Part shown: positions 19,950-45,126 of the stretch, one piece after another
Layout of the letters: each line of letters starts with the position of its first letter
Numbering within the stretch: the first letter of the stretch is position 1
Notes under the pieces: generated by a model
The model's input: only the letters and a program-made list of their open reading frames with translations
Told to the model about the DNA's origin: nothing
Database searches by the model: none
NCBI GenBank assembly: GCA_021030905.1
Contig: JAGFMI010000026.1
Span: forward strand, 62,001 to 126,000
Length of the DNA stretch: 64,000 nt
Direction: 5' to 3'
DNA from: Pyrenula massariospora
Lineage: Eukaryota; Ascomycota; Eurotiomycetes; Pyrenulales; Pyrenulaceae
Program-made: the position numbers and the translations under genes

Positions 19950-20994
19950 ATGCGCCTCTACGTCCTTCCCATCTCCAATCGGCGCGCCCTTATCTACGCT
20001 CAACGATTGAACAACCAATTGGTCCCGAAGAAAAGTTACGTCGACAATCTCACCGACAAAGCTGCGCGCAAATGGTCCGAATGGGAAGAAGCTCCCTCAG
20101 GTTGGAAGAAGACAGTCACCCAGTACGGTAACCATGCCTTTCAGCGCATAAGCTACGAGGAATGGGGGCTGAAGAGCATTCCGCCGTTGAGCCATCGGAG
20201 AAAAGCAGAGGAGCTGGAAGGGAATTGGAAGGTGGAGGTAGTGTATCCTGGAAGCGTCGTGCAACAGGAGAAAGTACCAGAGGTGTTAAGAAGGTTAGCG
20301 ACAGAGAAGCAGGGGATGCACAGGAGGAAGATGTGGTGGAGCTTAGTGGCAATGCCGTTTACAGCGCCAGTTGCGCTTGTGCCTATGTGAGTTGAGCGCC
20401 TCTAATTGCAGAGCTGGGTATCAGAAGCTACAGCACATCCTACCATTAGCTGGACCGGCGCCAGCGTTAACAATTCGATGCGCGACGACCTCTGATACCC
20501 TGCTTGCCTCAAGAGTATCCTAAGCTAACAGATGCCCGTAGAATACCGAACATACCTTTTTTCTACCTCGCATTCAGATGTTGGTCGCACTGGCGAGGTA
20601 AATTTCACTAAACTTCTAAGACATGCGGCAGCAGCTAATTCAGGATTTAGCATTGAATGGATCCAAACATACCGAATTTCTCCTTCATAACAAGCTCCTC
20701 CGATACACATCCTCTCCAATACTTGACGAGATCTATTCGCGAAGCTTTGCAAAACGGGCAACCCCTTTTTCCCTACTTCCAAATCCTGGCTCTGTCGCGA
20801 AAGCGGCCACGGAGGACGAAGTCATGCTCCTCGCCGAAACAAGTCACAAACAAATCGCCAAAGCCCTCGAATTTCCTGAGATTGGCATGGAAGTCGATCG
20901 GGCGGTACGGCAGGTGAAAAAACTAATCAATGCTAAGCAAGAGTTTAAGGAAGAAAAGGAGGAGCTGGAGGCGGCGCAGAAAGAGAAAAGATAG
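19950..20994 (+). CDS. Mitochondrial K+-H+ exchange-related protein (Mit_KHE1 family)
   Basis: Member of the fungal mitochondrial K+/H+ exchange-related family (yeast YDL183C type), placed at the inner membrane in K+ homeostasis. Three exons: 19950-20386, 20542-20597 and 20651-20994, giving 278 residues. The diagnostic membrane segment is assembled across intron 1: MWWSLVAMPFTAPVALVP followed by IPNIPFFYLAFRCWSHWRA. Downstream, GSKHTEFLL is conserved and the C-terminus is a charged coiled coil (QEFKEEKEELEAAQKEKR). Intron 1 is 155 nt, about 100 nt longer than its neighbours, because it carries one copy of the dispersed palindromic repeat (20411-20510). Without that copy it would be an ordinary 55-nt intron. 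Confidence 0.88.
20411..20510 (-). mobile_element. MITE-like palindromic repeat, copy 1 (in intron)
   Basis: About 100 bp whose two ends are inverted copies: GGGTATCAGAAG on the left and TCTGATACCC on the right, with GCCTC closing the right end. Core, reading on the minus strand: TTAACGCTGGCGCC. It lies wholly inside intron 1 of the K+/H+ exchange-related gene. No coding capacity. Confidence 0.85.
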
Positions 20995-21196
20995 TGTCTG
21001 TACGATATTGCATTACTGTGCGCGGTGATGGGGGCATGGTGCATATCTGCATATTGATAGATCTCGGCTCAAATAAGAGGTAGCCAGCAGAAACCAGACT
21101 CACACATAATGAGAAAAGAATGATAAATATATCTCTCCGAACCGGATCCCTGGAAATTACATTGCCGTTGCCGTTGCCAGCAAAGCAACAAGTCGG

Positions 21197-22385
21197 TCAC
21201 TCCCCTCCGGATCCTTTCACGGTCTGGAAATAGTCCTGAATCTTCATCTTCTTTTTAACTACCACCGTGTCCTCCCCATCTCCCTCTATCTCCGCCTTCC
21301 TTTTACCCTGCCCCTTCGGTGCAAGGTAAGTCCATCCTTCCCCCTCTCCAGCGGGTATGCCCGCAATCGGCTCCTCCCTTCTCTCCCATACCGTCCCCAT
21401 CTTTTTCCTAAAGTATTTCTTGAAGGTCTTCAGTCCTACATCGAGGTTTGTGCCGACCTGTGGAGTGAGGGTATGGCAGACCGGTGGACGGGTTTTGGAG
21501 GATGGGGGTGTGCTCACGGGAGATCCGGTAGACTGAGAAGAATCGGGAGATGTGGTTAGTGAAGAGGGTGAGGAGCGCTTGCGGGGGAGCTTGACGTAGA
21601 CGATATAGTTGGGAGGGTCGGTATTGGACTGACAGAGCTGAGGAGTGGTCAGTGAGAATTGTGGCAGTGGGGGAGATATTTTGGGGGAGACCCTGAGTGT
21701 CAGCTTCTCCGTGAGGTTGTCGAGGGTACTTTGCTTGGTGAGTTCGACGTTGTACGTGAAACCATTTGTGTCGGTGTAGATGTGGTAGTTCTCTACACAG
21801 TAGTTGAGCTATGAGCTCTTCGAACGCTTGATCAAGGCATGACTAACCAACGGCAATATCATTGCGTATCTCATCGGTCTCGGAAATGACTTTCTTGGCT
21901 TCACACAGGTCAGCATTACAGCGACCGAAAATCTAGAGCGCCAGGAGATGAACCTATCTTTCTCTCCCCAGTGTCCTTCTTCGCCTTTGGCGGCCGTTCC
22001 TGCTTCTTGACTTTGACCGAAATCTTCTTCGGTTGCTGCCACCTATACGGCTTCGCTGGCTTCGGCTTTCTTGATTTCGACAAAAGCGAGTCCTCAAGCC
22101 AGTCATATTTCACGACTTCATAACATGGCTGTGCAATGGCGTCTTTGACTGTCAAAGGTAGTATCAGAAACCTGCAAATTCGACGACCGTGAGAGCAAGC
22201 AAACCAGTCTTTGTCTTGGCTTTCCAAACGGCTTCCGTGCAGACCAGATGAGTGACTTTATCGTGCACCTCCGGAGACACCGCGCCACCATGTCCTTTCA
22301 CCCATTTGGCGATTTTCTCTGTATTTCTGCCAAAGTCCCCAGCGTGACAGAGGTTGACGTGGGCGAAGGTTAGCTTTTGTGGCAT
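21197..22385 (-). CDS. BRCT-domain protein with a WGR-like C-terminal region
   Basis: Likely nuclear protein for DNA-damage or chromatin interactions; no exact ortholog is recognised. Five exons: 22385-22205, 22148-21954, 21898-21848, 21792-21692 and 21637-21197, giving 322 residues. The N-terminal 85 residues form a BRCT fold (AHVNLCHAGDFG, KIAKWVKGHGGAVS, VTHLVCTE, YEVVKYDWLEDSLL). A Lys/Pro-rich basic linker follows. Then comes a WGR-like segment (YHIYTDTNGFTYNVELTK, NYIVYVKLPRK, LKTFKKYFRKKMGTVWERR). The C-terminus KKKMKIQDYFQTVKG resembles a PCNA-binding PIP-type motif (Q-x2-Y-F). The 54-nt segment 21691-21638 has no stop and could be read through; I treat it as an intron from its GT..CAG ends and because it splits the WGR-like strand. 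Intron 2 limits are the least certain. Confidence 0.78.
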
Positions 22386-23302
22386 AGCTCCTGAGTTTAA
22401 GCCTAGCGAGAAAGGGAGCTGCGAAAAGTTTCGCTGGACCACAATTTGAGATATGGAATTGCTGATTGAGAAGAAATACAATTGAATAGCCAGAAGTACA
22501 AGAGAAAGGAAACAAGCGATGTATAAGCAAGACCAGATCAAATGCAAATGAGTAAGAAGTAAATTATAGGATTTGAATGAAAGAGATATATAAGTAGTGA
22601 ATCAAGAGCTTCAACGTGCGCTTTACAAGTTGAGTGATGACCTTGCATTATCGATGAGCAGGGTTACAAGAAAGGAGAAAATATGGGTAGAATTTGATAA
22701 GGAGGAATGTGGAGCTAAAATCAGAGTGAATGGAAAGATATAGTAGAAGCCCACACTTGTCCATAATACTCACGGAGACGGTTTCTCTGGATCCTTTCAT
22801 CACCCGAACCTATTTCATCAATGCAAACCGGTCCTATGCTCCGATACCGGACATCAGTTGGAGTACTAGCTATCTCACGCGTTTGTAGCTCAGCGAGCTA
22901 AGTAATTTTCTATACACGAGTCTCGTTCTAGCATTCAAAAGAGCTCAGGAAAGAGCTAGACGAGACTGGGTGTCACAAGTCACGGCGCATCCAATACACG
23001 CCGGGCGGGCGCCAATGCTAATAATCAGATGTGCCACCACTTCTGACACCCAACCTCAAGAGTAGACGTTATGTCAGGATTTGGGATGCGATTTTGAGGA
23101 TAGTAGAATGAGATGAACGGATGCCCAAAATTTGACTCGTAGACAAGATACTATGAGAGGTGTGCTCGCGGCATATTAGAAAGCACCTACTGTTCAAATC
23201 TAGTATTTGTAGAATCCTGTTCTCAAGAGAGACTGCAGGAGTGTTCAGTTACCTCGAAGAAATCTGGTCTTTTTTCAAATTCAAAATGGGTATCATTGTT
23301 CA
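22386..23302. other. Intergenic region with one repeat copy
   Basis: 917 bp between the BRCT gene promoter and the 3' end of TRP1. It contains palindromic repeat copy 2 (22962-23057). A stretch near 22882-22905 resembles a tRNA A-box region but has no matching B box or cloverleaf. No gene called. Confidence 0.5.
22962..23057 (-). mobile_element. MITE-like palindromic repeat, copy 2
   Basis: 96 bp with inverted ends: GAGACTGGGTGTCACAAGTC on the left and ACTTCTGACACCCAACCTC on the right. The core on the minus strand reads TTAGCATTGGCGCCCGCCC, nearly identical to copies 3 and 6. Intergenic between the BRCT gene and TRP1. Confidence 0.88.
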
Positions 23303-25621
23303 TTATACGTTCTTGCCCTTGACAGCTTTTACAAAATTCTTTATCTTGTCAAAATCATGTTCCCCATTACTTTCGACGCCACTGCTAACATCCACTGCCA
23401 CGATTTGCTGGCCATCGTCTCTAAGCTCATTAAGGATCTCTGACACATTTTCCGGATCCAAACCCCCGGCTAACACAAATTGTGTGTCGCGGTCAGCTGC
23501 CAGAGTCTTCTTAATAGCGTCCAGATTTAATAAAGTGCCGGAACCACCAGCACCGTAGTCGAGAAGAGGAAGGGCATGGTAGCCTCTTAGCCCTATTCCC
23601 AAGTCACCAGGCGCAAATTTGCGGAGAACTGGTACTGGTATCAAGTTGGCCCACTCAAGTGGTTCTGACCCATGCAGTTGCACCACATCAAGTCCTAGTA
23701 ATTGCTGCTGATCCAGAATATACGACAATGGCTGATTGAGAAAGACACCAACAAGCAGCGCCCTGCTTTTATGTCTAATAAATTGGGCGGAATACTTAAA
23801 GAAATCCGTAGCCACAGATCGACTAGCACTTTTGTCGGGGTAGTTCGAAGCGGAGCGGCGGCGCGATGTTGCGCGAACGACATTAGCTATTTGTAGAGCC
23901 ACATCATCTTGAACGAATCGCTTCCGTCCCTGGACGCGTATGATACCGATCATGTCAGCACCTGCCTCGATAGCCACTTTAGCCGCCTCTGGTGACCGGG
24001 TACCGCATATCTTGACAGCCATTCGTTCCGGATGATGCACCAGAATCGATTCACTGGTTCCCCCCAGAAGATCGGCAACAAATGCTGCGGTGTTCGAGGA
24101 TCGCATCAAAGCTTCTCCCACTAGGATTGCTTTGACACCGTCCTTACTGTAGGCTTCCACGTCTTTGTGGCCAGAGATACCACTGAGAGCACACACAAGG
24201 GTGTTCTCCGGCACCAGGTCCATCAGTCGGCTCGTTGTGCCTAAGTCGACCTCAAAGCTCGTCAGATCTCGATTGTTAACACCAATGACTTCAGCCCCAA
24301 GCTTTGCTGCAATTTTCATCTCATCAGGAGTATTAACCTCAACCAAAGGCTCCATTCCAAGGCTTTGAGAATATTTGTACAGTCTTGACAATGTTGTAGC
24401 ATCTAGCATTTTCACAATTAGTAAAACCGTATCAGCTCCAGCTAGTCTAGCCTCCAATATCTGATATTCATCAAAGATGAACTCTTTTCGTAGCACAGCA
24501 GGCCTATTAGGCATCCCTTCTAGGCTTCTCCGGACGCCACGGAGGTCTTCTATACTTCCTTTGAACCACTCAGGCTCCGTCAACACAGATATAACACTTG
24601 CACCAGCCTTCGCATATTCTCTTGCCTGAGCGGGTGCACATGTATCTAGAGATATGATACCCTTTGATGGCGAAGCGCGCTTAATTTCGGCCATTAGGGA
24701 CAGTGGGTAAGGAGACTGCCTTAGTCTTTGCGGAAAGGATATCTGTGGAGGGGACAGGTTGAGATCATAAGCCGCCTGCAGGTCCTCTGTCCGCTGGGAG
24801 GGAATCAGCCTTTGTGCTGCAACGGACTGACGGCGGCGATCGTAGATTTTCTCCAGTATCGATTTCTTCTTTACTGTCGACGTTCCGTTGACAGCGACTT
24901 GACTATGTTTAGACTTTGTCTGCGAAAGCTTCGCCAGGCTATCACTGTCTTCCCACATACCTCCAGTCATTTTCAAAAAGTTCTGGAGCATTGTGCGGCC
25001 TTCTTGTGTAAGAATGCTTTCTGGGTGAAATTGTACTCCTTCCACGACAAAATCCTTATGCCGAACGCCCATAATAATGCCTCTGCCGCCATCTGGACCA
25101 GCTGCAATCCATGACGACACTTCAAGGGACTCTGGAATCGTTGGGTAGGTACCAGCTAGAGAGTGATACCTCGTCACAGGTAAGTCCTGAGGTAGTGATG
25201 CATAGACACCCTTATTGTCATGGCGTAAAGGTGAAGTCTTGCCGTGTAATATCTCTCCTGTAACCTCAATCTTACCGCCATAGGCTGAAATGATGCATTG
25301 CTGTCCCATACACACGCCAAGGATTGGAATTTTGCCACTGAAATAGCGAATCGCTTCATTGCTGATGCCTGAATCCGTGTCTGGATGTCCTGGTCCTGGG
25401 CTTATAACTAGCTGTGTAGGCTTTTTTCTCATCAATTCATCCAGAGATATTTGATCATTGCGAAACACAGTAACCGTCGCACCTTCTAGACAAAGATACT
25501 GATAGACGTTCCATGTGAAAGAGTCATAGTTGTCGATCAAAACCAGATTTGACGCAGAAGCCAGCTTTGGGGCAGGTGAAGGTTGATTTGGTGAATAATC
25601 TATCAATGTTGAAGTCGACAT
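23303..25621 (-). CDS. trp1: Trifunctional tryptophan biosynthesis protein (glutamine amidotransferase / IGP synthase / PRA isomerase)
   Basis: Single-exon gene of 772 residues with the standard ascomycete TrpC/TRP1 order. Residues about 25-215 are the class I glutamine amidotransferase subunit of anthranilate synthase ([10 protein letters not shown], nucleophile Cys104 in GVCMGQQ, FHPES). Residues about 255-520 are indole-3-glycerol-phosphate synthase ([43 protein letters not shown]). The rest is phosphoribosylanthranilate isomerase ([40 protein letters not shown]). It catalyses three steps of cytosolic tryptophan synthesis; component I would be a separate gene. The ATG at 25621 gives the expected short N-terminal extension. 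It shares a 312-bp promoter with the divergent NUP188 gene; a TGACTCA box there suggests cross-pathway (Gcn4/CPC1) control. Confidence 0.98.
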
Positions 25622-25933
25622 GACATATCAAAATCGTCCCCACTCAAATCCAAATTAAGCAGTTTCAGAAATCTCCGCGGCAGAAAGAAATTAAAGACGT
25701 AGCATTCTCACGGTATTTTCTGCATGCAGGAGAGCATTTCCTCTCGTGCTTCTTGACTCACCTACTCTTAGCGGTCATTATTTCTCTTCTGGCCTTATCT
25801 GGATCTGGGAAGGTTTTCCGAGTCGCGTTTCGCGGGAACCTTTTCCTACAGCGCGTCGCTGCAGCATCTCTTAACAAGGTGGATTGCATCCTGCAGATCC
25901 ATCATTGAAGTACGATGCGGTAAACCTTCCAGC
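25622..25933. other. Bidirectional promoter, TRP1 / NUP188
   Basis: 312 bp separate the two start codons, so both genes must be driven from here. Apart from the TGACTCA box listed separately, I see no other element I can name. Confidence 0.7.
25755..25761. promoter_or_regulatory. TGACTCA box (Gcn4/CPC1 type) upstream of TRP1
   Basis: Perfect 7-bp palindromic TGACTCA about 134 bp upstream of the TRP1 ATG. Gcn4/CPC1/CpcA bZIP factors bind this sequence upstream of amino-acid biosynthesis genes, and TRP1 is a classic target. Chance occurrence of a 7-mer in 312 bp is low but not negligible. Confidence 0.6.
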
Positions 25934-28900
25934 ATGGCTTCCGCTGGGGAGCTTTATTTCCCTCCACTAGATCGCTGCCTCAGCGGAGAGGCTCTGCTCA
26001 TGTAAGTATTTCACCCACCGCGCTCCAGCTGTAATTGACGTAGAGAAGCTCTTGGAAAGATGTATACACTCATTTGAGCGCCGGAAAATCTATTCAGAGA
26101 CCGTCAAGAATATACACTTTTTTGTCAAGCGACAATGCCCTTCACATGGTCTCTGATCCCACAAATCCGTTCCCTCAGCCAACACCAGATTCGAAAGCAT
26201 CGTTTGAGACCAAGACAGCTGCAATAAATATTACTCCATCTTCTCAAGGTCAATACAACCTCAACGAGATAAAAGACGATGCCTTATGGTTGAGCAAACA
26301 AGCCGATATAGATGAAGAGTCTTCCCTCCGCATTGTGGTTCTTGAATGGCAATGTCGGCCGGCGAGTCAACTGCAGCGAGGCTTTTCCGAGGCAGAGAAA
26401 GCAAGTGTTAGGGAAGCCTTCGGCCCTCAGAATGTTCCTCTCGCCATCAAAGACAACGCAACACTGGAAAATCTTTTGGCCAACGACAGTGACTCCGAGA
26501 AGTTTCTATCGATCGAGGATAGACGGATCCGATTGCTGAAAACCTACCTCGCAGAGCGCTGTTCCTTACTTGCGATCTCGAGACACCTTCTATCTGTTGC
26601 GCACGCAGGATCTCAATCTGAAAGAGAGACGAGAGAAAATATGGGCGACAGCTCGAACGGCAAACAAATCGTAGCCGCCTCAGAGGAGCTAGGAAACAGA
26701 GTTTTACATCGACAAGCGAAACTTTTCCCCGAAAATCCACAGGAAAAGGTGCTCATGATCTACATCGCCGCATTGAGAGAGCGCATCAACAAGATTGAAA
26801 GGGGGTGCGGATGGTTCCCAGAGACAGACCAAGGCCCCAAAGCTGAGATCGCCTGGCTAAATGCAATCCTCAAAGAAATGGTCACAATCATGGAGCTCAC
26901 ATTTTTACACTTGCGTGCTTTTCTTACCATTCCGTCTGCGCCCCTTGTACTAGAATGGCTAGGCCTCATGGTACAGTACACCTTCTTTGAACAAGTTGAG
27001 CTTGGATCTGTAGCACAGGCGCCACTTCTTGATGCCCTGAAATCATTGGCTCCCATTGTCACTCTATCTGTTCTCAATGTGAACGACTCCATCCAATACC
27101 TGCTTCAAAGCCCTCAACGATCTTTTGAAGAAAACGAGACTAACCAGCACTTTTTCTTTTTGAACCCCGAACACATCGATGAGATTCACGGAATCTTCTT
27201 AGATGCTGCCGCAAGCCATTCTCGAATCGCTAGTGTGCCTGTCCTTGCATGGGGCCTAATATGCTACACTCTTCGCGATGCAGCGTCCGAGCAGAGGGAG
27301 GTGCGAGAGAAGCTACTACAAGAAACCGCCAGGAGACGACATTCTGGAAGTAGCAGCGCATCGCTTCATCAGAGTCTGTACGAGGACATTTCTGAACATT
27401 TGAGACATGCCAGTGGGGGCACTAATTATCCCGAATTTCTTTTCCACAGCGCGACAGAAGTAAATGGTGTATTTGAGATCATAAGTCTCCTTGCAAACAG
27501 TTCTCACCCGGAAGAGCCCCTAGGTAATAGATGGAAACGCCAGTGCCTTCAGGAGCTCATTAGCCTCGCATTCGATACCGCTGGTTATTCCGAGACAATT
27601 CTACTAGCTATTTTCTCAACATTGGAGGAGCCGGCTTCCAGTACAGAGTCACATTCCTCGTTTCCGAGTCTGCGGCAGTTTGATCTTCGTGCAATATTCC
27701 TTGAGGATCAATTTTTGATGGGCTGCGTCTTCGACCTAGCTTTGAAGCGATTTCCTCATGAAGCTACATCGTTTCTAAGGCTATGCAAGCTCTTGGCTTC
27801 CTCGGAGATCTTGAACGACTCAAGGATGCCGTTTGTTGCGGAGAGATTAAGACTCGTCAACACATTCACACAGGCTATACCACCATCCTTTCGGGGATAT
27901 CAGACCATCAGAGAGGACGAAAACGCTAATTGGGTACAATTGATTCAGACGATTAGCATGCATGGCGGCAGCGGACCTCTCATGCTTGAATACGAGCATT
28001 ATCAGCCAGTGACTGATAAAACCACAGACCTGATCGTTCAGGGCTCCGAAGGGCAAGTGGTGTCTTCTGGAAAGCCTATTGTGATATGCTGGGTGCATAC
28101 CTACTCAATATTGTCATATCTTGGAAGATGGCTCTCCGTGATTCGTTCTGGACAAAATGAAGGTTCACAATGTGTGGACAGCCTCGAGAGCGTCGCTGCC
28201 GAGATTGTTGGCCTGTTGACTGCTCTCACATCAACGATTTCTTACCATGGTGATATTGAGGCTACGAGGGAAGTTCTTGAAGAGGTCAGTGCAGAGATTG
28301 CTGAGGAAGACGTACTTTCAGTGATTGCAGATATCTTTGAACAAGAGCTTCAAATCATGAAATATCGTGCAAGCTTTGAGAGATCACTTGACTTGCTTGT
28401 TGCTTGTGTTGAATTCTTCCACGCAATAATCAAGGTTCTGCCTGGTAGGATCTGGCCTATTCTAGGACGTAGCAGCCTGGTAGGCATGGATGGGAGCGGT
28501 GGGCTTCTGTCTTCTGTTGTACACTCAACAGAGGTATCATCAATGGACTTTGCATTCCTAGAGAGTTGCATCAGCTTGTACGAGGCGCTTGTTGAAGATG
28601 CTGTGTCGTGTTCCTTCACACAGGCGGATTTCTCGACACAGTTGAAGTCGAGCCAAACATTGTCACGAAGAACATCTACAAATACATCGCATACTCCGAC
28701 ACGGGTGCGAAGTCAATTATTACTTTCTTTTACTCAAATGACTTTTGAATTCTACGAAACGATATCTTCTTGGACCTTCCGCGAGCAGCAGCAACGTGCG
28801 AGAATTCTTGCCGACTTAGCGACATGTTTCAGAAAAGTGATTTATTACTGGTTTGGCATTGATGATACCCAAGATTTCAAGACTAAGCTTACTGCGGCGG

Positions 28901-31491
28901 TGGCGTTATCGGCATCATTTTTGATTGAATCTTTGAGCTTTTCATCAAATCGGGATGGATTACTCAACCCAATTCTAAAAGGGATCACGGATGGGCTAGA
29001 TCGTCTTGATCCATGCGCAAGTATTACAGCAACAAATGTTTGGAGAAGAGAGATTATTGCGACCATTGATTTATCTATGGAGGTCTTGAGGGCAAAGAGT
29101 CTCTCTGACCGAGCGCCTGCGGCAGCAAATCATCAGCTACTCAACACGTCTCCGATTTTAGTGCGTCTGTTTGCCGATGACTGCCTATCGAGGCCGATAG
29201 TCTTGAAGCTCTTGCAGCGATTGATCGTTGAGGAAGAAAAGCGGCCAGGATCTGAAGCACAATCTCTTCTCGGGCAGCTTGGACCAGAGTCTTCGTATCA
29301 ATTCATTGAAATGATTTCGTGCCTAGATCAGCCGTTCGAAAGTTGTCTAATTCTGGCTGACACTTGGAGTTTGCTACACTCGCTAGTCCAAAAACGCCAG
29401 CAATGGTTCGCTGTGGTCATACTGACAGGGACAATGTCTTATACACGAAACAGTCACACCCCAGCAGATGCATCGAAGAAGCTACGTGGAAAGTCTATCT
29501 TGACAAGAGCTCTGGACTACTTAGCTGAAGACTCAAGCTCGAAAGATATCACTGTGATCCCCAGCGTTTTATCCTTCGTGCAGCGTGCGCAGGAGAATTG
29601 GCCTTGGGCAACTCTCAGCATGTGGTCTCACAATGGATTTGTCAGGTTCCTCACAGAGTATCATAGAAAACTCACACAAAAGAAGACCTCAAGCCCGTTT
29701 GATGAATGTTACGAGACACAAACAGCCGCTATTATAGCCGATATTCTGACAAGCTATCTACATCATATCAGAGCAACCCAAGACCGAGCAGCATTCTCAA
29801 AGCTCCGAAGTGCTATCGAATATTACGCCGAGTGTGGAAAATCCAGATTAGGCTACAATGATTCCTTGCACGCCAATCTGAAGGAAAACGTCAAGCGCAT
29901 TTTTCCAGGGTGCGAACTTTCAAAGTTTAAGAAGACTTCTTCTGCCCCATTAGAATTTGGAGAGGATTTCTATTACGACGTGACCTTTGCCAGCAAAGTC
30001 TTAGGCTTTAGTCAAGCTTGGAAAGGAACTCGCGGGCAAGGACTTGAATCAGAGTTTCGTCGTGCAAACATCAATCTCTCTCTTGTTGATGCTCAATTGT
30101 GTCTATGGAAAAGCTGGAAATCGCTCGCTGTCGAGCATTCACCATACTTTGCTATTGATGGCGAAGTCCGCAAGTTTATGGCTAAGGCAATTGAAAAATG
30201 TCTTGAGTCAAATGCTCAGAACTATCCGGCAGACTCGTTATTTGACAGTCTCCTTCAGAGCCGGATAGAACTAGCCATTGCGCTTCTTCAGCGTCTCGTT
30301 GCTACAAAGACAAGAGCGATTGAGTTTGTTCACTTGCTAGAACCGGCTTGGACGGCCCTTACCTCTCGCACGACCAGCTACGAAGCTGCACTTGCCAATG
30401 ACGACTTAGTATACTTCAGATCACTGTTGAATGCCGTTTTCTTGGCCATTCAGTTCCATATCAGAGTTACTCCAACGAAATCTGAGCGTCACGAAAGAAC
30501 GAAGAACATTCTCCTTGACCTACTTAGGAATGTCGTTGCAAAAGGACTAAAGGCTCTCGTTACTGGTCTCCACGGACAATCCAATTCAGGAGACACGGAT
30601 TCTCAAATCGGCCCGACTGACTTCCGCCTCCTCCTTGCATTATTACAAGCGATCATCCGTGTTCCTGACCTCCACGTTTTAGGCTCCTCGCAAGCTTCCG
30701 AAGCACTTTTGCTTGGCCCTATTTCTGAATCTGCCTTACACCTCTATTCTTGGTCGCACAGTCTTCTCGGTCCTGGATCCGACCCTGTGTACGCTTCACT
30801 TAGTAGCTCTTTCCTCGTCAGCTTGTCAACTCTGCCTCTTCTAGCCGAAGATCTCGCTGCCTCCCAAAATGTCCTTTCATCGCTCGCCTCAGCCAAGATG
30901 ACACGCCTACTCATGACACGTCCCAAAGGCGCTGGACCGCTCGAAACAGAGCTATTACCACTTCGGCTCTACGAAACATGGACACAAGGAATTCTCCCAC
31001 TCTGCCTGAATCTGCTCCAAGCTGTCGGGCGCGCAGTGTCTGCTGACGTCTTGCACTTCCTGAACTTGATGCCCCATCAGCTTGAACGAGCATCGCTCGC
31101 TCTCAACGCACAGGGTGAATCGAGAAATTTCACATTGTCCTCCATCAAAGAGGTGCAGGATCTAGCATTAATTGCTGCGGTTCTGGACAAATACCGGGAA
31201 GCGGGGCAGAGCGCTGGTGTTGATCCGCTAGATTTCATAGAAGATCTGAAGTGGTGGAACAAGAGTGACAGAAAGGGGATCAGAGACGATGTTGATGATC
31301 TGCTCGCGAGCAGGCCAAAAATGAGGTTGAGACTTGTGCCGGGGGATGAGAGGGAGGCGGCTCTGGCGCAAAAGAAACCTAAGGGGGATCAGGGGGGCGG
31401 GAAAGGCGCATGCGTGAACGCGCTGGAGGAGTTGATTGTCGAGGAGCTAAGGAAATGTGCTGTCTGCTTGAAGGCAGAGACGGAGGAGTAG
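25934..31491 (+). CDS. nup188: Nucleoporin Nup188
   Basis: Large alpha-helical scaffold protein of the inner ring of the nuclear pore complex. Two exons: 25934-26001 and 26046-31491, giving 1837 residues, the size expected for the family. The short first exon supplies MASAGELYFPPLDRCLSGEALL, which matches the Nup188 start, and joins to SSWKDVYTHLSAGKSIQRP. The stretch FETKTAAINITPS..IKDDALWLSKQADIDEESSLRIVVLEWQ is characteristic of Nup188 and not of Nup192. The rest is helical solenoid without short motifs. The acceptor is GTAGAG at 26040-26045; the nearer TAG would put the frame into a stop. The end is Glu/Lys-rich with two cysteines (KCAVCLKAETEE). Confidence 0.93.
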
Positions 31492-32187
31492 AGGAGTACT
31501 TGAGAAAAGCATAGTGGTGGTTGTTGGATGCTAATTTGCACTTTTGAATAGATCATGATAATATAATGGCTTTTTCACACCTTAAATAGTGTCTGCAGCT
31601 TCGCTAAATAGTCCTTCTGCTCCGACTCGATTTGAGGCTAGGTGTCAGAAGCCGTGATGCATCTAATCGTTAATGTTGGCGCCTGCCCAGCGTAGCTTAG
31701 ATGCGCCACGACTTGTGACATTCGGCCTTGAATGTGGCTGCGTTTAGCACCACCATTCTTGGGCTCGATTGCCTAAGTTGGAAATATTGGATTTTGAAAC
31801 TACCCTGCTTCTATTCTCACTACATAGTGGTGCTTACGTTCACTGGATTGTGCTCTTCAACTTCAGACAAGCGTCATCTTTGGAACATCTTCTTGATTAA
31901 GATATTACGCAAGCAATCCGGTCGTCAGCCGCCATAACGCGCCCTTTGTCCAGCATAACGCCTCAATTTATGTCACCTCTGGCCCTGCCTTATTTCGTGC
32001 ATTGTCGAAGACCATCGACCTTCGTCTTTAAATTTGGATTTTTGCGAATTTACACTTAATAATACCGCAATCCATGGGAGAGACTCAGTAGGCGTTTTAG
32101 TCACCATCAATCTCTCTATCTAGATCTTCTCCCCATCCTCTCTTAGAATCCTTCCCCATCCCCTTCAACTCCTCCACCGCAACCATA
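31492..32187. other. Intergenic region with one repeat copy
   Basis: 696 bp between two plus-strand genes. Palindromic repeat copy 3 occupies 31634-31729. A frame at 31728-31937 (69 codons) begins at the repeat edge and has no resemblance to known proteins. The pyrimidine-rich tract 32100-32185 looks like the leader of the next gene. Confidence 0.5.
31634..31729 (+). mobile_element. MITE-like palindromic repeat, copy 3
   Basis: 96 bp beginning GAGGCTAGGTGTCAGAAGCC and ending with the inverted form GCCACGACTTGTGACATTC and GGCCTT. The core on the plus strand reads TTAATGTTGGCGCCTGCCC. Intergenic, between NUP188 and the metallo-beta-lactamase gene. Confidence 0.88.
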
Positions 32188-33552: not shown

Positions 33553-34071
33553 GGGTTTGCTTTTGTTTTGGAGGGTCAGTTGTGTTGGAGGAATTTTGTC
33601 TACCGATGAAGGATGGTTTACGAAGTTTTGCAGGCATTATCGCTACAGCAAGCATTTCAGCGTACTCTCCAGCAGCGCCTAAGTCGTGATAGCACGCATC
33701 TAATGATAAGCCCTGGCGTCTGTTAGGTTAATGATGAGATACTCCACGACTTCTGATATCAAGCCTCGGATGGCTACTTACGACCTTACGCGGCACGATG
33801 AAAACAAGTCCCCTTAGGCCGGCTTCAGTCCAGAGAGCAGCGAGTCTCCATGTAAAGAAAAGGAATTATTATGACTACAAATATCAGAGCATATGTACTG
33901 TACATCCAATATCCGATGCCCTCGGAGACACCCACAAGACACGCCATCTCTGCAAATGAGCGAAGGCATTGGCAGGGGACATAATTACCTGCCATCACTC
34001 CTAAAACCGAGGATATGCCCCGTCATGCCAAAAACCCATGCAAATAACTTGGGAAAAAAAATAGATCTTGT
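33553..34071. other. Convergent intergenic region with one repeat copy
   Basis: 519 bp between convergent stops. Palindromic repeat copy 4 occupies about 33665-33767; the remainder is presumably 3' UTR. Confidence 0.5.
33665..33767 (+). mobile_element. MITE-like palindromic repeat, copy 4 (diverged left end)
   Basis: The right end is well kept (CCACGACTTCTGATATC then AAGCCTC) and the core GCCCTGGCGTCTGTTAGG is recognisable. The left end keeps only AAGTCGTGATAGCACGCATC and is otherwise diverged, so the start is approximate. Confidence 0.75.
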
Positions 34072-36015: not shown

Positions 36016-37010
36016 ATGATGGAAACTCTCCTCTCTCACTCCTTCGACTATCTCTCCTCTCATGACCCGACCAAAATCCGCAAAGGCCTTCGCCAGGTCG
36101 AAGGTCTCCTCGCGCAGATATGTCTTTCCCGACCACCACAGACAGCAGCCGAAAAGCGAAGATCCGTAGCCTTGCCTGCCACCAATTCATCACTAGCACC
36201 ACCTAAACAACTCTCCGACCTCAAAGATGATCCTGCCTTTCGAGACTTCTTCAAGCTGCAGGAGAGCTTCCAGTGGAACGTCGCCATGCGGCTGATTGCC
36301 TGCTTAGAAAGATTATTAGGAAGAGGAAACGATGGACAGAGCGACCTTTTAATCGTCTCAACCCTCGACCTACTCCAAGGGATACTTTTACTCCACCCAC
36401 CATCACGCTCACTATTCTCAAGCGACATAAACATGAATGTACGCTCCCCCACACCACAATCCCCATCCTAACCTAACCTAACCTAACTATTCAAAAGCTC
36501 CTCCTCGACCTCCTCGACCCCACCCTCTGCCCCGCAATCCACAGCACCACCCTCCTCGTCCTCGTCACCGCCCTCCTCTCCCACCCGCCAAACACCCGCA
36601 CCTTCGAGTCCCAAGACGGCCTCCTCACCATCACCTCCCTCTTCAAGACCCGCGCCGTGCCTCGCGAGGTCAAGCTCAAGCTCGTCGAGTTTCTCTATTT
36701 CTACCTCATGCCCGAGACACCCACCACCACCAATCTACCCTCGAGTAGCAGCAGCGCGCCGAACACGGCGGTGCTCGGGCCGCAGCGGCGGGAGAGCCGG
36801 ATCGCGAGGATGGGGCTGGAGATGGGGTTCAAGCGGCGGGGGGAGACGGTTGCCGGTGCCAGCACCGGTGATGGGGTGGCGGTGGATGCGGAGGAGGGCA
36901 CGAGGACGACGGAAGAGAAGCAGGGGATGTTGGGGAGGTACCTGAATAACGTGGAAGATTTGGTGGGGGACCTGAGGGAGACACAGCCGTTTGGGACGGT
37001 GTTTGGGTGA
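36016..37010 (+). CDS. cdc14: Cdc14, septation initiation network component (Sid1 partner)
   Basis: Homolog of fission yeast Cdc14, the non-catalytic partner of the Sid1 kinase in the septation initiation network. It is not the unrelated budding-yeast phosphatase of the same name. Two exons, 36016-36438 and 36498-37010, give 311 residues. Conserved blocks are LLSHSFDYLSSHDPTKIRKGLRQVEGLLAQICLS, FFKLQESFQWNVAMRLI, LLLDLLDP, REVKLKLVEFLYFYLMPE and the C-terminal RYLNNVEDLVGDLRE. The start may be either of two adjacent ATGs at 36016/36019. Its 59-nt intron carries four CCTAA units just before the acceptor, giving several equivalent branch-site candidates. Confidence 0.9.
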
Positions 37011-37391
37011 TGCGTGCTGTACTGTGAGTAGGAGGCTGCATAGGGAATTAAGAACCTTGCTCACTGTCGTGACACTGCTGCCGAGGCTGGGTAGCAGAGG
37101 TCATGGCCGAGCCCAATCTCTGATACTAACGGGCGCCGACTTATTATTCGGAGCGGCCATACCATTTGTTATCCAGCCCTTGTGTACCATCAAACGCCAG
37201 TCGACACACTGCCCAAAAGTTATTTATGACACATGATTGGAGAAGTTTTCTACTCAAATAGCACATAACACAACAAGAACGCTACAAGCCATGCAAAACC
37301 CCCCATCCCGGAGACTGTGTAGCTCCACCTAAAACCATGCACAATACAATAAAGCACCAACCCCCCGTCCATACCAACCCCACCCACGCCC
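37011..37391. other. Convergent intergenic region with a diverged repeat copy
   Basis: 381 bp between convergent stops of CDC14 and the NLR-like gene. A decayed copy of the palindromic repeat fills 37083-37181. Confidence 0.5.
37083..37181. mobile_element. MITE-like palindromic repeat, copy 5 (strongly diverged)
   Basis: Starts GAGGCTGGGTAGCAGAGGTC and ends TTGTTATCCAGCCC, still recognisable as inverted ends, with a GGCGCC core. It shows more differences from the shared sequence than the other copies and is probably the oldest or most mutated. Confidence 0.6.
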
Positions 37392-40300
37392 CTACCTTGA
37401 CCAAAACATAACCAACTCATCAAAGTCCCGCATGCACAGCTCCTCCCTGGTCTTCGTGCTCTCGGGCAGCAGCTCGCGGTACAGCGCGACGGCGGTCTTG
37501 AGGTACTGGCGGGCCTCGGGCCAGCCCAGGCTCTGCAGGAGGGTGCCCTTCTGGAAGGAGGTGCGGGCTTTTTCGTGCTTGAAGTAGGGCTGGAAGAGGA
37601 AGACGTTGAGGGCTTGGTCGAGGAGGCGGCTGGTGAAGGGAGGGGGGAGAAGTTAGTGGTGAGTAGAAAGAAGGATGGGGAATGTGTGATGAGTATAGGG
37701 GGGAAGATGGGAAGGGGAAGGATGATGTGCGAAATTAGGTCCAAGCCGAGTTCAGTTATCAGAAGTCGTGGCACATCGACCATTTAGCTGGGCGGGTACC
37801 AGTACTAATTATCCGATATGCTGTAGCTTCTGGTATCGAACGTCGAGCGAGGCTGGGAAGAGAAGGAAAGGAGAAAGGAAAGTTGCCGGGGGGTGTCATT
37901 GAAGCGGGAGAGCTGAATGGTGATCAAACGGGGAGACCTACATGGCTTCCTCTGGCTGGTTTAGACGCGTACAATGACCAGCCAGGCGGCAACAGACGTC
38001 AGCAGTGCGGTGATGACTTGGTCCAACTGTGGCTCGGAACTGATTGTACGCTCTCGTGTGGTAGTCCATGCTTTCGTCGAGACGGCCCTGGGAGTATCTA
38101 ATATTACCCATGGCAAAAAGTAACCTCCCAGTTCTATTCAAGTAAATAAGCTATTTGATTCGCAAGAAATTAAGTTTGGCCGACCACACTTACTTCATCG
38201 ATGTCCTGTCATCCCGACCAAGTCGCTGCTCTCGATGTGTAAGGGCTTTTCCTACGACTTCAGCAGCCTCTTCGTGTTTGCCCTGAAGCCAAAGCGCCAG
38301 ACCTAGATTAGCGGCTGGAAGGGCAAATTGGACAGTTTCGTGAGCTCTAAGGTCTCTGTACTTCTCGATTGACTTCCGGAAATAGGAGGCGGCAACGTCG
38401 TATTTCTTTTGCCGCATATAATCATTTCCAATCTCGTTGTATGCCTGGGGTATTAGCTCATCCTCCCCTTGAAGCTGCGGCTCTAGGCTCTGCCGTAGAT
38501 AGAGGAATTTCTGATGTGTGTCAAACGCCTCCGCCGCGGCGTTTGTCACATTGCAGAGGGCGCCGTAATAATAGTATACCTTCGATAGTAGGCCAACAAT
38601 CTCACGATTGTTCAGATCGGACTCGACTCCTCTGGCGGCTTGTACTTCAGCAATTGCACGCGCTTGCCAGCTGAGTGAGTAAGCGTTCTTATACTCGCCT
38701 CGTTCGTACAGGCACCTAGATTCGTCAGTCTCGCTTCAACTAGAGGGAAGTCATTTGTACCAAGAGGCTTCGCTCATAATCTCGGCAAATTGAAAGCTGG
38801 ACCTGGGTGATAGGTCTAGCTGCAAATTCCCCTCATGAAATTGATGGAGCCGCAAGATGTGAGGGAGTAAGGTTGCACTCTTGCCCCATCTGGAAACTTC
38901 ATGAAGTTCGAGCAGTGATGGTCTTGGCCACAGCTTTGAGAACATTCCAATGGTTGCCTCGTAGACCTTCGTCAGCCTTTGAATCCCCATTCGGACTTTT
39001 GCCATGTCCTGAATAGTGCGGTGAATTTCTATCTCGCCACTATTGATATTCATAAGCGATGTCATAAGTAATTCTGATTTTGCAGCATCCCAGGCAGAAG
39101 GCGTTTGCGGGAACCCTTCAAGGTCAAGGTAGGGAGCTCCCTGGCGTAGCATCTCTTCTTTGATACCGTCAGGCTCTAGCAATGCTAGGACATCAACGAG
39201 GCAGGAGCTTTCGGTCAGCTTGCCCAGGGCAACAAAGATAACTGATTGGACATGATCATAAATCCTATGTTGGTCTGACTGAATTCGGCTTGATTCACTC
39301 AACGTGTCTCTTGTGCGACATATCTGATCAAGACAGCCTTCATCGAGCGTCAGGGACCCTTGCTTGATAAGATGCGATGCAGATACCAGTGCTATCGGCA
39401 CGCCACCTAAAACCTCAGCGATCCGAGCTGCAGCCAGAGTTTGCTCGGGGCGTCCGCCTGTTTGAGTAAGTTGGGTAAGGAATTCGATGGACATTCCCTG
39501 ATCAAACGGCTCAACATCAATGCCTAGCTGCCCAAAGAAGTTCGCCGTTCTGGTCAATGGATGCCGACTTGTAATGAGAATATCCCCTGCTCCACCTTCC
39601 GGCCAAAACTCTCTGAGCAAGTCTGGGTTCTCGACATTTTCAAACACAATTAGCCACCGGACATGTCCCGCAATCTGCTGGTTGTGCCGATCACTTCTTG
39701 AACAGTAGGCAAGCCAGCTCTTTAAGAGATCTCGACTTGCAAGCATATCACGGGCATCATCAATGGTGTGCAATCCAAGCCCAGTCGCAATCTCCTCATA
39801 AGCTACCCAAAGCTTGCTGACGTCGTCAGCGCGGATCCAAAATATGGCTTCGTATTCCGTCTGATGACTGTTCACGAAATGCGAAGCTATTTGAGTTTTA
39901 CCGGAACCAACATCGCCGCAGAGAGCAAATGTCCGAATCTTATCCCGCTGACGGGCGCTACTGGCATCTGTGGATGTTTGCAAAGTGTCTTGAAGCGCCC
40001 GCAAGATCTCATTGCGGGCAAAGTAATTCGGGTTGGGTGGTGGGACATTATAGCGATACGGCAAGTGAGGCTCAACATTTAAGAAAATGTCAATTGCAAT
40101 GCCATGGTCAATTTCCACAGGACTTTGTATTGTGTCAGTAGTATCTGATGAGTCAAAGGGCTGTCGCAGTAGTGAAGGTGATGTGGACTCGGAGCCATCC
40201 CTCGTGCAAACAGTATATTGCTCGGATGGTGTGAAGGAGGCACTTCCTACGGATCGTTAGAGTGAGAATTGGTAACATAGAAGGCGACCTACGGCGGAGA

Positions 40301-41628
40301 GCAATGCGATCAAGCGAGTTCCGTCTCTGCAAAACTGACTGGCGAGAAAAGTTGATAATGGCTGAATGCATCTGGCTGTTCACCGGGACAAGGCAAATCT
40401 CTTTGTGAGACCCATCTGCAAGTAGTCGAACCTCGTGCTTAGCGTCCGTGCTAGCAAGGGATGGATGCACGAGCTGTGATCATAGTTAGCTTATGATTAT
40501 GACTTGTGGTTTAACCTGCTAGCTATGTTCCTTATAAGCTCGCGTTATCAACATTTAGTTCTTTAAATCGTTTGGGAGGTCATTCTCTGCCAATAAGAAG
40601 TGCTTTTTCCCAATTCGTTTCCCAATGTACCCAAGTCGGCACCTGGTGGCCAACGAGGCCGTCACAACTTGACAGACGCTCTTTCGGGCATGATAAACCC
40701 GAGAGATAACACGATTTCCAAGACATCGTACTTGCAATACAGGTACGAAACCCTCGCCTCTGGACAATCCTGAAGGGCGACCTATTTGGAAGCCGACAAG
40801 GTGACGACCTATTGATCCTTTTTTTCCTCTTATTTCCCTCTCAATACAATAAGACTTAGGAAAATTCAACTTACTGTAAGTTTCTTTGATCTGAACTTGG
40901 ACAGCCGAGTGCCTTGGTTCTCATGGATAGTAAGTAGCTGAAAGTGATGGGAAACATAGTCGAATCTCGTAGAGAGGTCGGACAGTTGTGTCGCATCGCC
41001 TATGCGAAAAACACTCTCATGCATTGACCTCTCGATGAAGGCTTGTTTGAATCGATTGCAGAGCTGGTGAGCAGTCTCCTTGTCCTTTGGATGGGGACTG
41101 CCGAGTAGCACCAAGCCAGCAACATGTTCAGCCATTCCGTGAGCATGATCAATTCGAGAGTGGCAGAGGCATAAAGTCTAGATATCGATTCAGCCATCAA
41201 CGGCGTTGGTAACCCGGTTTGCTTACCTGTTTTACGATCGAGCCTCCGAGGCTGTGTGCAATAAAAATGATGGGCTTTGGTTGTCCGTTGCTTCGTTGTA
41301 GGTCGATTGCTTTATCGAGCAGCGCCGTTGCAGATTCTGAGATAGCGTGCCATGAGAAACTCCGTTCAGGGTACAGGCCGTGGTCCCAGACATAGCAGTC
41401 TCCGTCTCGGGAGACTTCTTCGAGCCAATGGCTTTTGGCTCCGGTTGGTTTCCATTGCTCCACCGGGGGTGTTCCGATTCCTGGAACGGCAATATACCTG
41501 CATATTAGGAGTTAATCACGATGTCTTGCGTTAGGAGGGCCATCTAATCTGACAGGGCTGGTTTATCCACCTGGTTGCGTGGACCAAAAAGTAGCCTCAA
41601 TGATGGAGGCATCGCTCAGGCACACCAT
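37392..41628 (-). CDS. NLR-like STAND protein: SesB-type alpha/beta hydrolase, NB-ARC ATPase, TPR repeats
   Basis: Eight exons join in frame: 41628-41585, 41497-41227, 41177-40875, 40473-40293, 40246-38761, 38715-38194, 38133-37942 and 37629-37392, giving 1078 residues. Residues 1-240 are a hydrolase domain (YIAVPGIGTP, YVWDHGLY, nucleophile Ser97 in AHSLGGS, LVLLGSPHP). The nucleotide-binding domain has Walker A GDVGSGKT at 377-384, a Walker B-like stretch WLIVFENVENP, and ILITSRHPLT and GGVPIAL. From about 730 on come TPR-like helices (AYNEIGNDYMRQKKYDVAASYFRKS, TADVCCRLAGHC). This domain set is known from fungal receptor-like proteins linked to heterokaryon incompatibility and defence. Exon 1 is short and the least certain. 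Intron 3 is 401 nt with an unrelated 104-codon open frame; intron 7 (312 nt) holds repeat copy 6. The last exon is far more GC-rich than the rest. Confidence 0.87.
37747..37845 (-). mobile_element. MITE-like palindromic repeat, copy 6 (in intron)
   Basis: Left end GTTATCAGAAGTCGTGGC, right end GCTTCTGGTATCGAAC. The core on the minus strand reads TTAGTACTGGTACCCGCCC. It sits inside intron 7 (37941-37630) of the NLR-like gene. Confidence 0.82.
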
Positions 41629-42276
41629 CACGCACTACATTGATCAAATATCTTCCAGCGATCACTGGAAATCTTACGCGAGGAGAAACGAAAGCTAGAA
41701 GGATCCAAATGGAAGTACGGGGTCACTGTGAAAAGAGAAACGGGGAAAAAGAGAGCCTAGCTTCGAGCAAGGAGGGGTAGCTTAGCTTCGTTCTCGCATC
41801 TTGGGTGCATCTTTGGGCCGCCTTCCGGGGAGCCTCATTCACAAAATCCAAGGCGAAGGTGGCGAAGACCTGGAACTTGCTAGTGTAGCGTGGGTTGATG
41901 ATCTGATAGGATGCCTCGAACTTTTTGGGTGGTGGTGGTTACGCGGAAGGTGGAGGATGGCAGCCTGGAGAACGCTTGGCAGCGTGATTGTGGTACCGCT
42001 AGCCCATACAAGCATCGCCTTGGGGCAGTGTGCATTCAACTAGCAAGAACATACATGAGTGGTACGCGAGCTGACCTGAGAGACGAGAGATCTCGAGAGA
42101 AAGGCAAATACTATTGCCATAGATTTGTAAATTGCAGATATCATTATCTCTTCAACCGTCCTCCCTGCGACAGCACCATACAACGCTTGATATCAGTACA
42201 GCAGCTCGGTAAGTTCCAACCAATGAGCTCAAATTCGAGTTAACGCTAGACACCAGTGCCATCAAGGCTTTCAGGA
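41629..42276. other. Intergenic region upstream of the NLR-like gene
   Basis: 648 bp between two minus-strand genes. Small frames at 41801-42043 and 41911-42243 show no motif. Presumably the NLR-like promoter plus the CorA-like 3' UTR. If the first exon of the NLR-like gene is wrong, its true start would lie here. Confidence 0.45.
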
Positions 42277-44254
42277 TTAAACAGAAGTATCATCACTCTG
42301 TCTTCCTTTACGCACCTTAACCTGCGTCCAATGATCCTCAAATGTTTTGCCCTGCAAATGAAAGAGCAAAATGACAGAGCTGACGGTCAGCACCGGCACG
42401 CTCACAGCGAACCACACCCAAATTCTCAAACTCTCCTGAACGAGCTCTTTAAAGTTCATCCCAAAGAAGCTTGTAGTAAAGCTCAGAGGTACGTAGATCA
42501 ACGAGAGTAGCGTGGCAATCTTCGTTAGCTGGGCTACGCTTTCTGCCATCTTGTTTGCCCGTGTAGACTCTGAGAGCGCAGCCTGGTGATTGGCATCCAT
42601 CATTCCTCGATCGCATGTTGCACTCAACTCACAGCAACGCTGGAGGAGGTGCTCGTAGTCTTCAAGGAGCAGTGACGCCGCGTCCTTCGCAATCGTTTCT
42701 TGATCAGCATTGCTCGACTTGGGCCATGAGGAGCCGCCACGAGTCTTGAGGCTGATGATATTTTCGCGCAGCTGGCGAGCGTGAAGTTCGAGGAGCTCTT
42801 TATGGAAGATGAGGTTTGCGAGAGACGGTGGTTTCGATAGCACCGTGAGACCAGTTTCGTGGGCAAGGACACTTTCCACCAGATTGAGAAACTGGACCTC
42901 GGCAAAAGCAGCGAAGCTGAAAAGGTCGTTGATGGCGTAAAAGGCGTCGTTTGCCATAGTAGGTTTGTCAAGTGTTTTGCCATAGTTCTCGTTCAGAAGG
43001 GCGCGGGACTGTTGGAATCCGACTGATGCTTCCTTTTGCTCAGCTGGCGAGCGAGAGAAGCGGTGCGAATTAAGTCCAATGCGTGGATGATGTCGAATGA
43101 CAGGGTAGAGCTCCAAAGGATGGATGTGCTTCAGAGAGTATTCGTGATCTGCGGACGATAGCCAGGGGCCTGGCAGTGATTTATCGAGATCCTTTGCTCA
43201 GCATCATTAATTTAAGAACGATCAAATAACATGTTTCATACCTTTCCACTATCCAACCATGCAATGACTTTACAGTGAGTCAGCGTCCTTCAAAGCCTTT
43301 TCATGTAGATCTCATGAGTGTTGCAAGATAGCTACTAACCTGTCCACGTATCGTTGACTTTGCAGCAAGTGATTGAGATATCTTGTTCAATGGAGCAGAA
43401 ATCATGGTCATGAATGGAAAATCGCACAACCATCGAAGAGCCTACTTCCGCATTGAACTGTCTTAGCTGATTGATATATTCTTTCATGCCACGGTTAGCA
43501 TAGGCCCGAGCAGCGTATAAACCGGCTTCTTGAGAGGACTGATTATGAGTCGTCCTTACTCCGATAGTGGGGATTCTTAGACGGACAATATTGTGGGAGG
43601 CGGAGGGTAAAGAAGGTGAGGAAAATCTGTTTGAAGGGCCGGGAACAATATTCAGATCCAAATGTCTCCGAAAATACTCTGGATCTACCTGGTATGGAAT
43701 CAGGAATCAGATATTTCACTTGCCAAAAAGCGATTACCTTGAACTTCGAGCCAACAGCGTTGAGCCATTCGGGGCTTGGATGACCTCTGAGGAACAGAAG
43801 TAGTCTCTCAGTTGAATGAAGTGAGTTTGAAGGATCCTGCTTAGCCGTTGAGAACCTTCGATGTGCATCTAAGAGCTCTTGAGGTGTACGCAAATGCTCA
43901 AAAACGGGATCGTCTCCAGGTGAAGATAAGTGATACAATGAAGCGTAAAGAGCTGGCTTGGGGTTTGGAGATCTGGACGCATGGAGTTCCTTCTCCTCCG
44001 GAGCGTCATAAGGTCGATACAGATACTCTGCGAGCTCGAGAAAATTGTTGCCCGGAAAAATGCTGGTGCGCACTGTCGAATCCGCATGTTTCCAGACGAG
44101 CTTCGCATACGATTCTGGTGTTACTATTTTACAATTAGCGAGTTTAGTAGTGATCCCAGCCTAGTCGCATACGTGGTGCATTGAGAGTTAGAGCACGAGG
44201 TCTGCCTGTCCTCGTCTTCGGTAGCCGGGACTGGTCTTCAGACATTTCACTCAT
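42277..44254 (-). CDS. CorA-like Mg2+/metal ion transporter
   Basis: Five exons: 44254-44173, 44123-43738, 43688-43340, 43267-43242 and 43191-42277, giving 585 residues. The C-terminus has two membrane helices (about 503-524 and 540-562). The first ends in the CorA signature Gly-Met-Asn at 525-527 within SFFGMNF. The second is WVWFAVSVPVLTVSSVILLF, and a basic tail follows. The N-terminal 300 residues form a fungal-specific cytosolic region with WLNAVGSKFKVDPEYFRRHLD and SITCCKVNDTW, seen in many CorA-like proteins of Pezizomycotina whose substrate is unproven. Exon 4 is only 26 nt. The start at 44254 is supported by a clean 49-nt intron with TACTAAC branch site joining it to the rest. Plasma-membrane location is inferred. 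Confidence 0.86.
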
Positions 44255-45126
44255 TAGGAAAACCTCATGAACGGTGTACGACTGTACAATTGTACAAATC
44301 GATGAAGCGATCGACTTCAAGCATTCTTATCTAATGCCGTGGGGGTACCATTGTCCTACCTGTTGCAATCTATTCCCAAGCAAGGCTGAGATAGTAGGCG
44401 CCATTTGCCTAGCAGAGTGGCTGTGACGCCACTCGCCGCCTTTTCTGGCCACGGTCATCTTCAGATGCTTGTGATAAGAACTATCGAATACGGTGAGACT
44501 TACACTCGTGGTCTAACAAAGCAGGTCGTCCGTTGAAAATAAGTCGATATGACCGCGAAAAAGTAATTTACCGCTGTCGGCCGTGACCGCTCCTGCTCAA
44601 CCTTGTAGGAGCCTGCCGCCTGCGCCGTCTCCCCGTCTTGAGGCTAGGTATCAGAAGTCATGACGCATCCAGTTGTTAGCATTGGCGTCTGTCCGACTAA
44701 TATCTAGGTCTGCGATGACTTCTGATATCCTGCCTCGTCAGCCTCGAAGCTGCACAACTTGCGTACATGCAAACGCGCTTGGAGTCATGTCCAATCCGCA
44801 TTAACCGTTCGCGAAGTACTTATTGTGGGGGTTTAAAAGGAAGAGGCAGCGACCGCAATTGCATTTCTAGACTGAGAGAATAATATCTCTAGTAAGGTAC
44901 TCGTCGCCGTAAACGCAATCAAATTGAGAAGGTTCCCACACGTGCACATTTGCAATTTAACCAGCGCTACCGTCCAATGTGACCAAATAGACGCCAACGC
45001 TACGATGATTCCTCTCATTCGGAATGCTTTTTGGGTATCGTCATGTACCCTGTATACCCATGCTATGCTCCAAAGACCAGAAGAAAAATATTTTGTCGAA
45101 GAATGCCGCCCGAGAAATTGTACCCT
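44255..45126. other. Intergenic region with one repeat copy
   Basis: 872 bp upstream of the CorA-like gene and downstream of the copper-fist gene. Palindromic repeat copy 7 occupies 44640-44736. Small frames at 44833-45130 show no motif. Confidence 0.5.
44640..44736 (+). mobile_element. MITE-like palindromic repeat, copy 7 (best-preserved ends)
   Basis: 97 bp starting GAGGCTAGGTATCAGAAGTC and ending GACTTCTGATATCCTGCCTC, the clearest pair of inverted ends in the window. The core on the plus strand reads TTAGCATTGGCGTCTGTCC. Intergenic. Confidence 0.92.

Follow-up and report, generated by a model that had tools for sequence, protein, structure and literature searches.

A dispersed family of 98-bp palindromic repeats in Pyrenula massariospora, very probably miniature inverted-repeat transposable elements

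Introduction

Seven short, near-palindromic repeats lie within 24 kb of Pyrenula massariospora contig JAGFMI010000026.1, in a 64-kb stretch (positions 62,001 to 126,000; hereafter the window) analysed here as a whole. Are they remains of a mobile element, or hairpins of some other nature? A first-pass annotation of the window had named both possibilities, with non-autonomous DNA transposons the first. The repeats prove to be dispersed through the genome, to have perfect terminal inverted repeats and 3-bp target-site duplications (TSDs), and to have sister families with the same ends and unlike loops; for these reasons we conclude that they are very probably a palindromic family of miniature inverted-repeat transposable elements (MITEs) belonging to a cut-and-paste DNA transposon. 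Elements moved by cut-and-paste transposition, with the transposase supplied in trans, are recognized by the combination of shared ends, unlike loops and a TSD of fixed length.

Results

The assembly comprises 37.8 Mb in 33 contigs, from which we sampled 99 loci, a few of them overlapping; with the window these make up 272 kb and contain 114 different MITE copies. The consensus model, built from 56 well-aligned copies, is 98 bp long: two 31-bp arms, perfect reverse complements of one another, start with CGAGG and end with CCTCG, and enclose a 36-base loop that contains TTGGCGCC. Each end thus gains one base (C...G) over the unit of about 97 bp first proposed. The absence of coding capacity noted at the same time holds for a consensus of this size, which is well under the limit of about 600 bp usual for MITEs.

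No clear target-site duplication had been visible in the first pass, and this judgement has to be reversed. Among the 60 copies with both ends present (full-ended copies), an exact 3-bp TSD is found in 25, whereas 1000 shuffles gave 2.3 on average and never more than 9. Lengths of 2, 4 and 6-9 bp show no excess, a length of 5 is seen in one copy against 0.03 expected, and shifting the offset leaves identical 3-mers in 0-3 copies. The proportion is 21 of 31 for copies scoring at least 80 bits. Two of the seven window copies have an exact duplication and two others match at two of three bases (Table 1, copies 2 and 6, and 3 and 7, respectively). The exact TSDs are ACA, AAT, AGT, CTT, CGT and 12 singletons, with neither TAA nor TTA among them. 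Read on the left side, the target has tendencies rather than a fixed sequence—A is first in 28 of the 60 copies and T last in 31, C precedes in 25 and G follows in 26.

The first-pass observation that all seven repeats lie in 24 kb, with none in the flanking 20 kb on either side, is correct for the window, where a model of the sister ends described below also finds no further member in those flanks. In the genome, the family is not confined to this stretch. An 18-base arm pattern, allowing up to two mismatches, has 379 genome matches against 10 for the same pattern reversed as control (about 100 places are listed; the counts are of the whole). For the outer-end pattern CGAGGCTNGGNNNCAGAAGTCGTGGC the count is 373, with 0 for its control, and many of the 373 lie in hairpins with other loops. 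Since the arm pattern recognizes only some arms, we calibrated it on 16 copies that it had not itself picked, namely the seven in the window and nine in the flanks of other copies: 11 of their 32 arms match, and scaling by this rate gives about 540 copies in the genome. If the nine secondary copies are scaled instead by the 190 kb of flanking sequence that holds them, the estimate is about 1,800; the loop of one of them (L040:1634-1738) is different. The family thus has hundreds of copies, as a rough figure from several hundred to under two thousand.

Their distribution is uneven. Seven arm-pattern matches fall in the window where 0.64 would be predicted from the genome average, and the window is therefore a locally dense stretch. 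Across the genome, the 59 copies with an exact arm form more neighbour pairs than expected within 25 kb (7 against 2.2, p 0.005) and within 100 kb (16 against 8.4, p 0.006), and not significantly more within 10 or 50 kb, so that strong genome-wide clustering is rejected in favour of a moderate one. Five exact-arm copies in 70 kb make up another dense stretch (G000:C22:801783-870323, L048-L052).

The hairpins with other loops constitute sister families, having the same 26-bp ends as the 98-bp family. We picked 40 loci by hand from two match lists (the second with 57 matches, control 0), and in 34 of them found an end pair 85-170 bp apart. Fourteen of the 34 delimited loci carry an exact 3-bp TSD, a fraction not to be taken as a fair sample because loci with well-preserved ends were preferred, some having been picked for a match at both ends; L143, among these 14, belongs to the 98-bp family, and L118 would be a fifteenth if its right end were shifted one base outward. 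The youngest sister groups, of 87 and 94 bp (L123, L132 and L134; L131 and L133), have 95.4-97.9% identity within groups, and all five copies have exact TSDs: AAT, GCG, CAC, AGA and AAT. The two that were folded, L123 and L133, are near-perfect hairpins (z -11.4 and -13.6).

Composite forms of about 170 bp, in which a unit of the 98-bp type sits between the arms of another, are present at seven loci (L020, L026, L032, L062, L078, L100 and L114, the last at 1032-1201); the outer arms are weaker at L078, and L047 holds a single outer arm of such a composite. It seems that the nested form has itself multiplied. At L117:201-504, arm-like units stand in a tandem-looking series, roughly 85 bp apart. 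Another dispersed repeat, some 210 bp long and with ends like TACAGTCAAGTCTCGA...TCGAGTCATGACTGTA, occurs in the flanks of copies, its members being about 68-82% alike (L026:953-1160, L029:2738-2942, L031:1103-1309, L032:897-1109 and L075:291-503, also L081 and L101); it looks like a MITE of Tc1/mariner type, and has no match in the window.

Within the window, a profile made from the seven copies recovers all of them where the first pass had placed them (E 4e-25 to 2e-17) and no eighth site in the 64 kb. An independent profile, for which 55 copies from the rest of the genome and none from the window were used, finds the same seven sites (E 6e-26 to 4e-7), its next match being at E = 1.9; in 20 order-1 shuffled windows, 1.28 Mb in all, the best scores were 11.8 bits with the seven-copy model and 9.5 bits with the independent one. 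Used singly as blastn queries, copy 37083-37181 finds only itself, and copy 44640-44736 aligns along most of its length with nine further loci (73-78% identity). That nearly the whole unit folds upon itself is true of six of the copies (z -2.2 to -6.5) and not of the seventh, folded as 33670-33767. We infer that the seven are old insertions of the 98-bp subfamily.

Table 1. Positions and state of the seven repeat copies in the window
Feature	Position	Strand	Evidence and remarks
MITE copy 1	20409..20511	-	Profiles; folds, z -2.3; outermost bases uncertain by a few; small insertion in one arm
MITE copy 2	22961..23058	-	Top window score with the independent model; 3-bp duplication TCT/TCT; folds, z -3.75
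MITE copy 3	31633..31730	+	Profiles; flanks ATT/AAT (2/3 bases); folds, z -3.0
MITE copy 4	33665..33768	+	Profiles; left arm decayed; fold lost, z +0.33 (33670-33767 folded)
MITE copy 5	37082..37181	-	Profiles; most diverged in sequence; folds, z -3.0
MITE copy 6	37747..37845	-	Profiles; 3-bp duplication GCT/GCT; folds, z -2.2
MITE copy 7	44639..44737	+	Profiles; strongest fold, z -6.5; flanks TCT/TCA (2/3 bases)

Several results weigh against assigning the repeats to a cut-and-paste transposon. The TSD is not exact in 35 of the 60 full-ended copies, and in 17 fewer than two of the three bases are alike. The sample contains no near-identical copies of the 98-bp family, the 59 copies measured having a median identity to the consensus of 85% and a maximum of 93%. 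The matching transposase with the same ends that had been looked for did not appear among the six transposase families searched, four of these searches having one or no matching control: the genome has no match to DDE_Tnp_4 (PF13359), a weak negative with a match in one of 14 control genomes; none to Transposase_21 (PF02992) or to the KDZ and Plavaka families (PF18758, PF18759), weak likewise, as no control genome matches; none to MULE (PF10551); and, to DDE_1 (PF03184), three fragments only (L128, L129, L130), with internal stops and without these MITE ends. Nor did unpaired arms lead to a longer element. Nine of them (L016, L076, L085, L095, L107, L109, L111, L113 and L135), followed inwards for about 0.75 to 6.7 kb, met neither a mate nor a transposase domain; ten open frames from four of these loci, compared with Pfam, gave no transposase, eight having no family at all and the recognised ones being a fungal rhodopsin and a polysaccharide deacetylase. 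No long element with these ends was found. The unpaired arms look like cut or decayed hairpins adjoining other sequence. In a first set of loci, 28 of 216 arm matches had no mate within 200 bp, and all of the 28 but one (L072:557-584) lay within a recognised, decayed or cut copy. The transposase may have been lost, may be missing from the assembly, or may belong to a family outside the reach or the sensitivity of the searches. The three fragments are the only traces of DDE_1 transposases found, and intact DNA transposons may be scarce in this genome.

The missing transposase also bears on which superfamily the MITEs could belong to. One proposal is that they are Pangu-like members of the PIF/Harbinger-related (PHIS) superfamily, with ANT duplications. 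The 3-bp length and the leaning of the target towards A first, T last, C before and G after fit it, and Pangu elements are reported from fungi in the portion of PMC4482050 consulted; but only 5 of the 25 exact TSDs are ANT (AAT in three, AGT in two), the young copies include GCG and CAC, and the genome gave no DDE_Tnp_4 match, with the control just mentioned. We consider this placement unlikely. Doubtful too is a more speculative one: that the repeats represent what remains visible of a transposon superfamily not yet described, with ends CGAGGCTGGG...CGTGGC, an unspecific 3-bp TSD and a transposase outside the families searched, from which short hairpins with novel loops arise time after time, each with its two arms once more almost the same, even at bases where subfamilies differ, as if the palindromes formed by fold-back copying.

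How the copies have decayed speaks against a hairpin maintained for its structure. The 98-bp family of the window is older than the young sister groups. C>T and G>A predominate among the changes from the consensus, a bias that old DNA undergoing decay would be expected to show; C is changed most often before A (16.7%, against 7.7-11.7% in other contexts), a weak trace resembling repeat-induced point mutation. Comparison of the two arms in the 56 aligned copies covers 1735 positions, of which 352 are mismatched. An identical change is present on both arms in 38 cases, where 21.5 would be expected and 37 was the maximum in 2000 permutations, and in 26 against 15.8 expected if position 12 is left out. 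This excess sits mostly at four positions (8, 10, 12 and 30), and would arise from subfamilies that differ there.

These figures bear directly on a hairpin of another nature: a conserved RNA or DNA structure that serves the host (as a terminator, insulator or source of small RNA), having multiplied in the distant past and been maintained since then by selection on its fold. In its favour, same changes on both arms exceed expectation, six of the seven copies in the window still fold better than shuffled versions of themselves do on average (z -2.2 or lower), and, as judged from predicted genes and their coordinates, the nearest gene of each of the seven (20409-44737) has its 3' end towards the copy. 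Upkeep by compensating changes should, however, have left far fewer mismatches between arms, and the 352 observed far outnumber the 38 same changes, the excess of which lies mostly at the four positions where subfamilies may differ; the pattern is therefore one of decay. Nor is the position 3' of genes general. For gene proximity and coding overlap we used 112 copies and the calls of a simple codon-usage predictor, which can miss short exons: within 200 bp, 24 copies lie to the 3' side against 14 (p = 0.15), and, taking the nearest gene end within 400 bp, 33 against 24 (p = 0.35), so that the 3'-of-gene function at which the window copies hint is rejected. Since the arms decay largely independently and the window has no Rfam match, we reject a structured RNA, to which we would give very little probability.

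The copies avoid predicted coding sequence, one of the 112 overlapping a coding call, and a weak one, against 30% of random placements. The idea that they spread as spliceosomal introns, as do the introner-like elements described in fungi (PMC4457414, in the part consulted), has hardly any likelihood left: although the repeats are short, multi-copy and hairpin-forming, and the inverted repeat happens to have a GT close to one end and an AG close to the opposite one, none of the 112 has a predicted coding segment within 120 bp of each of its ends, given that short exons can escape the predictor, and at least three window copies lie immediately past the stop codon of a long open frame (31491, 33552 and 37010); with no intronic copy among 112, introners are rejected.

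The genes around the window copies, which include those for a cullin, a three-domain TrpC, a polyprenyl synthase, Nup188 and a P450, suggest, together with the fungal rhodopsin domain found elsewhere in the genome, a filamentous fungus. The assembly has no 5.8S rRNA match (39 of 1309 candidates scored), though nine control genomes do; its ribosomal DNA seems to be missing, or was missed.

Discussion

The most striking non-coding feature of the window is thus, on our reading, an ordinary mobile element, as the first-pass annotation had supposed when it put DNA transposons forward; its alternative, a hairpin of another nature, is disfavoured by the mostly independent mutation of the arms, the lack of an Rfam match and the lack of a significant 3'/5' preference. 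In the history that we propose for the MITE family, the transposase of an autonomous element would have bound the ends common to the family, excised the element and inserted it at a target site whose strands had been cut 3 bp apart; fill-in of the gaps would have produced the duplication, and the copies, lying outside coding sequence, would later have decayed for the most part neutrally. The intact TSDs of the young sister copies imply that this lineage had a matching transposase at work at a late stage. With exact ends, TSD length and sister families available, the element can be masked and dated, and finding the transposase would place the family. As far as could be searched it is undescribed: the literature covered, which excludes subscription journals and repeat databases, holds no description of it and no printed match to its ends.

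Among candidate superfamilies the observations are that the TSD is not TWA, is ANT in only 5 of 25 exact cases, and that the ends are not CACTA. Tc1/mariner elements duplicate TA, hAT elements 8 bp and Mutator elements about 9 bp; TSDs of 2, 8 and 9 bp show no excess here, which does not fit MITEs of these three. The end motif of CACTA/EnSpm elements is CACTA, whereas ours are CGAGG...CCTCG, and Transposase_21 gave no match, though without a positive control. MITEs of that superfamily (CMC) are alike in that their TSD of 2-4 bp, as given in the portion of PMC4482050 consulted, covers the 3 bp found here. Tourist-like MITEs of PIF/Harbinger are likewise short and non-coding, with terminal inverted repeats, a 3-bp TSD and high copy number; they differ in that the PIF/Harbinger TSD is TWA (PMC4482050, same portion), a form seen in none of the 25 exact TSDs here, and in the DDE_Tnp_4 match that this genome, like all but one of the 14 controls, fails to give. 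Pangu shares the 3-bp length, some A...T tendency and an occurrence in fungi (again from that portion of PMC4482050), and differs in how seldom ANT is found here. Fungal introner-like elements are short and multi-copy as well, but are introns according to the part of PMC4457414 consulted, unlike the present copies, which lie outside predicted coding sequence with none of the 112 tightly flanked by it. A parallel in dispersal, compared by description only, is the MITE family of over 200 members reported for Pyrenophora tritici-repentis in the part of PMC3538342 consulted: there as here, one dominant family is dispersed through an ascomycete genome.

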